Shown: in pieces, positions 41,359 through 46,022 of the stretch | Layout of the letters: each line of letters starts with the position of its first letter | Numbering within the stretch: the stretch's first letter is position 1 | From: Devosia sp. Root635 | GTDB lineage: Bacteria; Pseudomonadota; Alphaproteobacteria; Rhizobiales; Devosiaceae | DNA length: 64,000 bases | Assembly: GCF_001427605.1 (NCBI RefSeq) | Contig: NZ_LMGZ01000012.1 | Location: 1,071-65,070, forward strand | Direction: 5' to 3' | Program-made: the position numbers and the translations under genes | Notes under the pieces: generated by a model | The model's database searches: none | The model's input: the letters and a program-made list of their open reading frames with translations, nothing else | Told to the model about the DNA's origin: nothing

Positions 41359-41434
<76 letters not shown>

Positions 41435-41575: not shown

Positions 41576-41980
41576 TCAACGGTCTTCGTCGCCGCCGACG
41601 TCGAAGCCGAGTTCGTCGTCTTCGTCTTCGTCTTCCTCGAGGAAGACGTCGGCATCGTCATCGCCGAGCTCTTCGTCGACTTCCACGTCCTCGGTCTCGG
41701 GAATATCTTCCTCGCCCGATTCCTCGGCATCGGCATCCTCGAGCGAGACGATCTCGGGCGCTGCCGCGTCCTCGACCTCTTCTTCGACATCCTCTTCGTC
41801 CTCGTCGGCCACCTTGCGGGCGGTCGCGGGGGAGGGCTTGCCGGTCAGAACCTGCTCGAAATAGGAGCGCGGATAGCTCTTGCCGGTATAGGGCGAGACG
41901 ATCGGGTCATTGCCGAGGTCGTAGAACTTCTTGCCCGTCTCGGGATCGGTGCGTTTGGTGCCGCGTTCGGAACTGGCCAT
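41576..41980 (-). CDS. TIGR02300-family acidic protein
   Basis: A 134-residue protein whose first 50 residues are conserved (RGTKRTDPETGKKFYDLGND, then PIVSPYTGKSYPRSYF). The rest is a long Asp/Glu-rich tail with simple-sequence character. The family is conserved in Rhizobiales and always near aroA; its function is unknown. ATG 41980 is preceded by GAGGAA. It is divergent from aroA. The acidic tail may bind a basic partner (inference). Confidence 0.85.
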   Translation of the reverse strand: MASSERGTKRTDPETGKKFYDLGNDPIVSPYTGKSYPRSYFEQVLTGKPSPATARKVADEDEEDVEEEVEDAAAPEIVSLEDADAEESGEEDIPETEDVEVDEELGDDDADVFLEEDEDEDDELGFDVGGDEDR

Positions 41981-42145
41981 CGATGTTCCTCGTCGTAAAG
42001 GTTTTGCGGGGCTTCTGGCCCCGGTTCGGTCAGTCCGGTTATGGACAAACACCGCCCCTGTCAAACCGAAAATGTGGAGAGCTGGTTCCCGCTCGCGCGG
42101 GGTGGTGGCCTTGCCGCGCCGGGCCGTGCTAAGCCGACTCCGCCC

Positions 42146-43507
42146 ATGAACGAAATTGCCCAGCAGATTCCGGCCCAAACCGCCCCGCTCGCCAGCCACG
42201 GCGCCCACCCGTTGAGCGGGCGCTTCGTGACGCCCGGTGACAGGGCGATTTCCCACCGCTCGCTGATCCTGGGGGCGCTGGCGGTGGGCCAGACCAGCAT
42301 CGAGGGCCTGCTGGAGGCCGAGGAGGTGCTGGCGACCGCAGCGGTCTTGCGCCAGCTCGGCGTGCGCATCGAACAGCGCGATGGCGCCTGGCATGTCCAT
42401 GGGCTGGGGGTCGGCGGCCTACTGGCGCCGGAAGGCCCGCTCGAGCTGGGCAATTCGGGCGCCGGGGCACAACTGCTGGTGGGGTTGCTCGCCCCCTACC
42501 CCTTTGCATCGCCCTTTGTCGGGGGAGCGACTCTGACGCGCCGGACGATGGAGCCGTTGCTCGTGGCGCTGGCACAGATAGGGGCGACGGTGCGCGAGGC
42601 GGAGGATGGCGGCCTGACCTTGCATGGTCCGCTCATGCCGCTGCCGCTGCGCCATGTCATGGCGGCGCCGTCCGAGCCGATCAAGTCGGCGCTGCTGCTG
42701 GCCGCGGCCCAGATTGCCGGCACGACCACCATCATCGAGCCGGTGGCGACGGGCGATCATACCGAAACCATGCTGGCCGATTTCGGCGCTGCGGTAACGG
42801 TGGTGAATGACGAGGCGGGCGGTGCGACTATTTCCATCACCGGGATCGCCCCGTTGCAGCCGCGCCGCGTGGTGGTGCCGGGCGACCCGACCTCGGCCGC
42901 CTATCCGCTGGTGGCGGCGCTGATCGTGCCCGGCTCGGAGCTGGTGATCGAAAATGTGCTGGTCAACCCCAACCGCACCGGGCTCATCGACACGCTGCTC
43001 GAAATGGGCGGCGACATCGCCTTTCTCAACCAGCACGAGGCCGGCGGCGAGCATATTGCCGACCTGCGGGTGCGCTCGTCGCGGCTTCGGGGCATTGGCA
43101 TTAGCGCCGCGCACGCGGCCGGCATGCTGGATGACATTCCGACGCTGGCCGTGGCTGCCGCCCATGCGCAGGGCGAAACCACGATCGAGGGCCTGGGCGC
43201 GTTGCGCCATCAGGAATGCGACCGGCTGGCGGCGATCGCCGCCGGGCTTGCCGCCAGCAAGGTGACGGTAAACGAAGGCGAAAACAGCCTGACCATTGGC
43301 GGCATCGGCAAGGTCGAGGGTGGCGGCATGGTGGCCAGCCGGGGCGACCACCGCATCGCCATGAGCTTCCTCATGCTCGGCCTCGCCAGCCAGAAGCCGG
43401 TGACGGTGGACGATACCGGCGCCATTGCCGCGCATTTTCCGGGCTTCGTGTCCGCCATGACCGCGGCGGGCGCCCGGTTCGAACCGGTGAAAGGACGCCA
43501 GAAATGA
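42146..43507 (+). CDS. aroA: 3-phosphoshikimate 1-carboxyvinyltransferase (EPSP synthase), divergent active site
   Basis: The 453-residue protein has the EPSPS two-domain repeat fold, for example SHRSLILGALAVGQT, PTLAVAAAHAQGETTIEGLGALR, and GDHRIAMSFLMLGLA. It lies in the conserved aroA-cmk-rpsA order, so it is the standard aroA locus. Several positions usually invariant are changed. PGDKS/PGSKS reads PGDRA (Arg33, Ala34). GNSGT.AR reads GNSGAGAQ (Ala106, Gln109). The SAQ block reads SEP (Pro178). Later residues (DDIP, ECDR, DHR) are kept. ATG 42146 was chosen because the conserved region starts 20 residues on. Its stop overlaps cmk by 4 nt. Confidence 0.88.
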   Translation: MNEIAQQIPAQTAPLASHGAHPLSGRFVTPGDRAISHRSLILGALAVGQTSIEGLLEAEEVLATAAVLRQLGVRIEQRDGAWHVHGLGVGGLLAPEGPLELGNSGAGAQLLVGLLAPYPFASPFVGGATLTRRTMEPLLVALAQIGATVREAEDGGLTLHGPLMPLPLRHVMAAPSEPIKSALLLAAAQIAGTTTIIEPVATGDHTETMLADFGAAVTVVNDEAGGATISITGIAPLQPRRVVVPGDPTSAAYPLVAALIVPGSELVIENVLVNPNRTGLIDTLLEMGGDIAFLNQHEAGGEHIADLRVRSSRLRGIGISAAHAAGMLDDIPTLAVAAAHAQGETTIEGLGALRHQECDRLAAIAAGLAASKVTVNEGENSLTIGGIGKVEGGGMVASRGDHRIAMSFLMLGLASQKPVTVDDTGAIAAHFPGFVSAMTAAGARFEPVKGRQK

Positions 43508-44142
43508 TCATCGCGGTCGATGGACCCGCAGCTTCGGGCAAGGGCACGCTGGCCTCGGGCCTGGCCCGCCACTATGGCCTGCCCTATCTCGATACCGGCC
43601 TGCTCTACCGCGCCGTCGGGCGAGCGGTGGAGGCTTATGAGAACTCGCCCGAATTCGAGACGCGCGCCATCGCTGCCGCACAGGCGCTGGACGAAAGCGA
43701 TGTCGAACCCGAATTCCTGCTTTCGGCCAAGGTGGGCACGCTGGCCAGCAAGGTGGCGGTGATCGGGGCAGTGCGGTCGGCGCTGTTCGACTATCAGCGC
43801 CAGTTCGCCACCCAGAACGGCGGCGCGGTGCTGGACGGGCGCGATATCGGTACTGTCATTGCCCCCGAGGCCGATGTGAAGCTGTTCATCCAGGCCGACA
43901 GCAAGTCGCGCATGGAGCGGCGGGCCCGCCAGCTCGAAGCGCGCGGCATGGTGGTTGACCGCTACGCCCTCTATCACCAGATAGAGGAGCGGGATGCGCG
44001 TGACATGCAAAATCCCAATGGCGGCTTCTACAAAGCCGATGACGCGCACTTGCTCGACACCACGCTTCTCGATATAGAGGCCGCACTCCGCGCAGCCATC
44101 GCGATTGTCGATGGGACCATGGCGTCCAAGGCAGGGTCTTAA
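43504..44142 (+). CDS. cmk: Cytidylate kinase
   Basis: A 212-residue (d)CMP kinase with P-loop GPAASGKGT near residues 7-15, the CMP-binding LDTGLLYRAVG, and the LDGRDIGTVI block. It starts within the aroA stop (ATGA) and precedes rpsA by 167 bases, the usual aroA-cmk-rpsA order. Confidence 0.95.
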   Translation: MIIAVDGPAASGKGTLASGLARHYGLPYLDTGLLYRAVGRAVEAYENSPEFETRAIAAAQALDESDVEPEFLLSAKVGTLASKVAVIGAVRSALFDYQRQFATQNGGAVLDGRDIGTVIAPEADVKLFIQADSKSRMERRARQLEARGMVVDRYALYHQIEERDARDMQNPNGGFYKADDAHLLDTTLLDIEAALRAAIAIVDGTMASKAGS

Positions 44143-44309
44143 GACCTTAATCCAACCTTGGATGGTTCGGCCCCGGCACTCACCCAGCGATCAGCCGGAA
44201 ACTACCGCAAATCAACTTTTCGATCGGGCGCTCGCGCGCCGGCATTTCCATTTGGGAATGGCGGGCTTTCGGTCTTCAACCCCAACAACCGGTGCAACGG
44301 AGAAGATAT

Positions 44310-46022
<1,713 letters not shown>

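Follow-up and report, generated by a model that had tools for sequence, protein, structure and literature searches.

The class II AroA (EPSP synthase) homologue of Devosia sp. Root635, encoded in the window considered here (a 64,000-nucleotide stretch of the genome), is a predicted pseudoenzyme of 453 aa (42146..43507, plus strand). From its sequence and structural model it seems, on balance, probable that this protein still folds as an EPSP synthase and is kept for a non-catalytic role after its replacement by a class I enzyme. A wider interpretation is put forward tentatively: a family of pseudoenzymes may have evolved repeatedly in Devosia after the replacement, with a new non-catalytic function borne by a conserved island, possibly by way of enolpyruvyl transferases that use a new acceptor (the QEC-type copies described below).

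The aroA locus and the substrate site

The gene was assigned by its translation and by profile matches to TIGR01356 (314 bits, above the NCBI AroA cut-off of 287.25) and PF00275 (259 bits). The frame is open over all 453 aa, and the best solved relatives of the protein are the chains of CP4 EPSPS (E about 1e-118). The start codon of cmk, encoding cytidylate kinase (43504..44142, plus strand; PF02224), overlaps the aroA stop codon (ATGA). Further downstream is rpsA, encoding ribosomal protein S1 with six S1 domains (44292..46022, plus strand; PF00575), whose GTG start is taken from a mechanical listing and is provisional. The other flank is formed by a divergent FYDLN_acid gene identified by a profile match (PF09538; 41576..41980, minus strand). 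A tRNA-Ala (GGC) adjoins the locus (41359-41434 of the window, minus strand). No sigma-70-like promoter match was found within 41900-44500 of the window. All Devosia-clade class II copies that were read lie between the divergent FYDLN_acid gene and cmk-rpsA, except L145, where the contig ends after the class II gene and the frame is open up to the contig end. The ancestral aroA-cmk-rpsA synteny and the phylogeny place the window gene in the class II AroA lineage, in agreement with the initial annotation, which had named an EPSP synthase at a housekeeping locus. PMC1173090 describes the same gene order in alpha-proteobacteria, the EPSP synthase gene being named aroF there.

The 18 positions of the substrate site were listed from the tobacco EPSPS model of PMC12256929 and mapped by motif; CP4 Lys353 and Arg104 were matched in this way to tobacco Lys358 and Arg105. 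In tobacco EPSPS the phosphate of S3P is anchored by Lys358, Arg105, Ser206 and the backbone amide of Ser179 (PMC12256929); the window protein has Gln at the equivalents of the first two. In CP4 numbering, the protein is altered at eight of the 18 positions, K28R, S29A, T101A, R104Q, A174E, Q175P, R200G and K353Q (its own residues R33, A34, A106, Q109, E177, P178, G203 and Q356), and retains R33, G100, R128, S173, D326, E354, R357, D403, H404 and R405. The affected loops in the alignment to CP4 EPSPS, all on the plus strand, are PGDRAISHR (42233..42259; K28R and S29A), GNSGAGAQ (42449..42472; T101A and R104Q), PSEPIKSA (42668..42691; A174E and Q175P) and RHQECDR (43205..43225; K353Q and S355C, with Glu357 and Arg360 retained).

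The lysine and serine of the PG(D/S)KS motif, expected in an active EPSP synthase, are thus R33 and A34, and the S3P-phosphate anchors CP4 Lys353 and Arg104 are Q356 and Q109; the catalytic Asp326 and Glu354 of CP4 persist as D329 and E357. The initial annotation had read by eye the change of Lys and Ser to Arg33 and Ala34 in the PGDRA loop, the loss of Thr and Arg from GNSGAGAQ and of Gln from the SEP block, and the retention of the later acidic and arginine residues. The alignment to CP4 bears out each of these readings: it places substituted rather than normal Lys, Ser, Thr, Arg and Gln at the named sites, and Asp329, Glu357, Arg360 and Asp401-His402-Arg403 remain. It also adds two changes, K353Q (Q356, within RHQECDR) and R200G (G203). 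We take R200 of CP4 to be an S3P contact.

The best 80 named relatives listed include two from Devosia genomes that were already counted; the other 78 are canonical. Together with CP4 and 11 sequences from the family they form a set of 90 canonical class II sequences, which agree 90/90 at the positions changed in the window protein, with the exception of A174 (99%; one of the 78 named relatives has A174S). In the copy of a sister genome (L005, 86% identical) the same loops are changed differently, by G100S, T101V, deletion of R104, R128L and Q175A. The same loops have thus been altered differently in two genomes, which makes sequencing error an unlikely source of the substitutions.

The class I enzyme and the erosion of the class II copies

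The source genome (99.94% complete) contains three PF00275 genes. One of them (L001) reads as MurA, another is the window gene, and the third, on another contig, encodes a canonical class I AroA with motifs PPGSKSITNR, GNAGTATRF, SSQY, RVKETDR and GKTYP (TIGR01356, 340 bits). A class I AroA was found in all 75 Devosia genomes searched, in three of them (G052, G056, G072) in pieces. Eleven key residues, which we take to be the equivalents of K22, S23, R100, R124, Q171, D313, K340, E341, R344, R386 and K411 of E. coli, are normal in 70/70 aligned copies (from 70 of the 75 genomes of the genus). In 17 of these 70 class I segments stops sit upstream of the second Met, and the gene is unbroken. The window gene is rejected as the sole AroA, as the class I gene is present in the source genome and in all 75 genomes of the genus; the class I enzyme would be the likelier glyphosate target. 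The initial annotation had offered the possibility that a different aroA performs the function and that this copy is drifting. The first half of this proposal stands; "drifting" is too weak a word, because the frames of the eroded copies are open, their omega is below 1 and the absences of the gene are clean.

The 136 genomes of the family were searched with the class I sequence and with a profile built from the class II copies (E up to 1e-30). Class I at an identity of at least 70% occurs in genera g1 (Devosia), g5, g10, g11 and g14, and was presumably gained before the split of g1 and g5. Class II copies are present in 32/75 genomes of g1, in 6/19 of g5 and in 0/4 of g10, g11 and g14. They also occur in 26 genomes of seven genera that have no close class I gene, and the 11 sequences read from these genomes all have canonical sites. 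Neither class I (at least 70% identity) nor class II (E up to 1e-30) was matched in g4, g7, g8 and g9. Several genomes of these four genera have a more distant AroA, 36-40% identical to the Devosia class I enzyme.

The class II gene is absent from 43 of the 75 Devosia genomes and is dispensable in them. In the tree of the class I genes from 70 genomes, its absence requires four changes, two of which are forced by supported branches, and most absences lie in one clade of 35. The deletion is clean at all 40 loci read from the 43 genomes: the flanking genes are 131-350 bp apart, and no aroA remnant was detected in the FYDLN_acid-cmk gap at any of the 40, where a very short remnant would escape detection. 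Three 2.65-kb stretches matched weakly (E 0.006, 2e-5 and 0.002). Each match is longer than its gap (178-234 bp), and thus the matches are located elsewhere, outside the gap.

The Devosia clade (g1 and g5) contains 38 class II copies, 37 of them with open frames. The broken copy, L024, comes from genome G052 (84% complete), in which the class I gene is in two overlapping pieces; these breaks are probably assembly errors, and L024 was omitted from the comparisons. For 36 of the 37 copies compared (29 from L004-L033 and eight from L144-L151) the same genome carries class I; none was found for G096. Lys353 is lost in all 37 and kept in 90/90 canonical class II sequences. Thirteen copies, termed QEC-type, are altered only at S29, A174, R200 and K353 among the 18 positions. 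Position 353 is Q and position 174 is E or D in all 13, and S29 is A in 12; K28, T101, R104, R128, Q175, D326, E354, R357 and D403-H404-R405 are kept in all. Their diagnostic signature is the change of RVKESDR to R(E/H/D/L)QECDR together with the fixed Y328I and T431A. One copy (L023) is near-canonical, and the remaining 23 are eroded, with 2 to 12 of the 18 positions unchanged. In the 22 copies without K28 (L023 included), mean retention is 0.31 at the active site and 0.67 at 132 other conserved residues (p = 2.6e-5 over columns), a descriptive contrast, as the sequences are related and the set was chosen on K28. For the window protein alone the corresponding values, 10/18 and 101/132, do not differ significantly (p = 0.083).

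A gene tree of the class II copies was built from the alignment with the site columns removed; on it, erosion requires five changes, four of them forced by supported branches. A regain of lost residues being implausible, each change is read as a loss. The QEC-type and QEC-derived sequences, 26 in all, group in a single clade (100/100). Copies L150 and L151 join g5 in this tree (88/94); by their class I genes they fall among other Devosia, and they contain the island typical of Devosia, so that this placement may be due to long-branch attraction. In four eroded g5 copies (L144-L147), LDPKLAM replaces LDHRIAM and the C-terminal part is conserved, which suggests a separate second career in g5.

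Selection, predicted fold and the conserved island

Selection was estimated as omega by NG86 with bootstrap intervals. For the pair of the window gene and L005 omega is 0.31 [0.22-0.42], as compared with 0.12 for the class I genes of the same genome pair. The former value is below 1 and above the latter, consistent with weakened but real purifying selection. The 17 eroded pairs give 0.17-0.61, with every interval below 1. For the QEC-type copies the range is 0.08-0.15 in four pairs and 0.08-0.20 in eight, for canonical class II genes 0.08-0.16 (three pairs), and for class I genes of the same genomes 0.06-0.12 (ten pairs). In neutral simulations a branch accumulated on average 2.0-4.6 stops, and 3-35 of 300 runs were stop-free. 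Thus the openness of one copy is weak evidence, and the argument is carried by the many copies. With an open frame and omega of 0.31, the window gene is not a pseudogene in the sense of a broken frame or omega near 1. Still, omega of the eroded copies is raised, and the constraint may in part be residual or serve folding alone.

The AlphaFold2 model of the window protein has pLDDT 89.7, and its best match by VIA-align is CP4 EPSPS with S3P (2gg6; Z 49.3, rmsd 3.1 over 437). The model of the strongly eroded L144 (pLDDT 91.4) matches unliganded CP4 (2gg4; Z 44.6, rmsd 3.7 over 424). By family profile and predicted fold the window protein thus matches what is expected of an active EPSP synthase (EC 2.5.1.19). 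The combination expected of a pseudoenzyme is also present: site residues are lost, and the fold, as predicted, and purifying selection remain.

The identity profile and the predicted structure reveal a conserved non-catalytic island at residues 267-312 (CP4 264-309; 42944..43081, plus strand), presumably the start of domain 2. It is predicted to form a strand, a helix and a hairpin and includes none of the 18 site positions. Among 17 eroded g1 copies, pairwise identity is 0.77 in these 46 residues, whose boundaries were picked post hoc from the profile, versus 0.46 elsewhere and 0.53 in the best non-overlapping segment of the same length. The ratio of identity in the island to that elsewhere is 1.66 in eroded copies, 1.26 in QEC-type copies and 1.05 and 0.96 in two canonical sets. 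R274, D279, N292, Q293, E299, D303, R305 and R307 are the invariant polar residues. The observed-to-expected ratio of synonymous changes in the island is 0.83 in eroded, 0.90 in QEC-type and 1.03 in canonical genes. The conservation is mostly at the protein level, with a possible small contribution at the DNA level; a DNA-level element as its entire cause is disfavoured by the value of 0.83. Conservation in the four g5 copies is seen in the C-terminal part (0.70-0.80) but not in the island (0.47). Therefore no single shared function is implied, and g1 and g5 may have kept different things.

These observations are consistent with the following scenario. At this locus the window gene represents the ancestral class II EPSP synthase, whose job would have been taken over by a class I AroA acquired at another chromosomal site in an ancestor of Devosia and its related genera. 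The resident copy would first have lost contacts of S3P (S29A, A174E/D, K353Q) with the PEP side retained, and later, in several lineages including that of the window, the PEP and catalytic contacts as well, leaving the window protein without useful EPSP synthase activity. Weakened but real purifying selection would retain it in a non-catalytic capacity; protein binding via the island at CP4 264-309 is the most likely role and is favoured because of the conservation of the island.

Competing explanations and known systems

The main rival explanation, which we regard as unlikely, is that the gene is an operon passenger: it would have no function of its own, its translation would feed cmk and rpsA, and selection would merely prevent misfolding. 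Indeed, in the window the aroA stop codon overlaps the start codon of cmk, the distance to cmk is -4 to +23 nt in the 22 eroded copies for which this gene is visible, and the best-kept residues are mainly glycine, alanine and leucine. In five of 13 less eroded copies (L012, L017-L019, L021), related sequences of which four belong to one clade, cmk begins 83-108 nt downstream. However, selection for openness only predicts omega near 1, and a bounded island with invariant polar residues, absent in active enzymes and in g5, is unexpected from folding alone. Moreover, deletion of the whole gene is tolerated, cmk then being 131-350 bp from the divergent gene.

Another possibility, and an improbable one, is a switch of acceptor. 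The 13 QEC-type proteins would be enolpyruvyl transferases that keep the PEP side and use an acceptor other than S3P, and the window copy would be their decayed or further specialised descendant. This agrees with the PEP-side residues kept in all 13, with the uniform changes at K353 and A174 and with the low omega of this group. Enzymes of this fold can share an acceptor, as Marchantia MurA is reported to make EPSP (PMC11588093). However, the locus contains no neighbouring pathway genes and no candidate substrate emerged; the QEC-type subgroup retains the S3P anchor R104, and the window copy lacks K28, T101, R104 and Q175. On the tree as drawn, eroded copies arise three times within the QEC clade, so a new reaction would have been easily lost.

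The initial annotation also suggested that the window copy is a still-working EPSP synthase with a rearranged site. The retained catalytic Asp329 and Glu357, several arginines and the profile score are compatible with this suggestion, but it is very improbable. Of the three anchor side chains given for tobacco EPSPS (PMC12256929), the two that were mapped (Lys358 and Arg105) have become Gln. Substitutions also affect the catalytic lysine, the threonine for PEP and the glutamine of the active site, a relative has lost these sites by other routes, and the genome carries a normal class I AroA. The less altered QEC-type subgroup may work in this manner.

Returning to the pseudoenzyme, the Devosia copies represent a natural, graded and replicated series from an active enzyme to a pseudoenzyme in a well studied fold. 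As related species are at several stages, the path and the new role are directly testable. The window protein passes the AroA cut-off of NCBI, and thus profile annotation misleads; predictions of glyphosate sensitivity in Devosia that use this gene would be drawn from the wrong copy.

Pseudoenzymes in general have lost catalytic residues and kept the fold and selection, and the Devosia copy resembles them in all three respects, its fold being a predicted one. It shares the predicted fold and 47% identity, nearly end to end, with the CP4-type class II EPSP synthase of Agrobacterium (2gg6, 2gg4), but differs from it at eight of 18 substrate-site positions, and Devosia has a second AroA. Among open-licence PMC articles, none was found that combines the terms pseudoenzyme and EPSPS, and the matches listed contain no report of a Devosia EPSPS or of a degenerate EPSPS. 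In Marchantia (PMC11588093) there are likewise two enolpyruvyl transferases in one organism and the fold takes a different acceptor; however, Marchantia MurA has the EPSP reaction, whereas the Devosia copy appears to lose it. The nearest precedent among the matches listed is the truncated EPSPS domain of Pseudomonas syringae. There the resident EPSPS fusion domain was damaged by truncation and a free-standing second copy was gained, lateral transfer being its probable source; the authors speculate that what is left of the domain might become a regulatory one (PMC1173090). The case of P. syringae involves a truncated fusion domain in one lineage, whereas the Devosia copies are full-length, have omega below 1 and show graded, repeated loss of the site.
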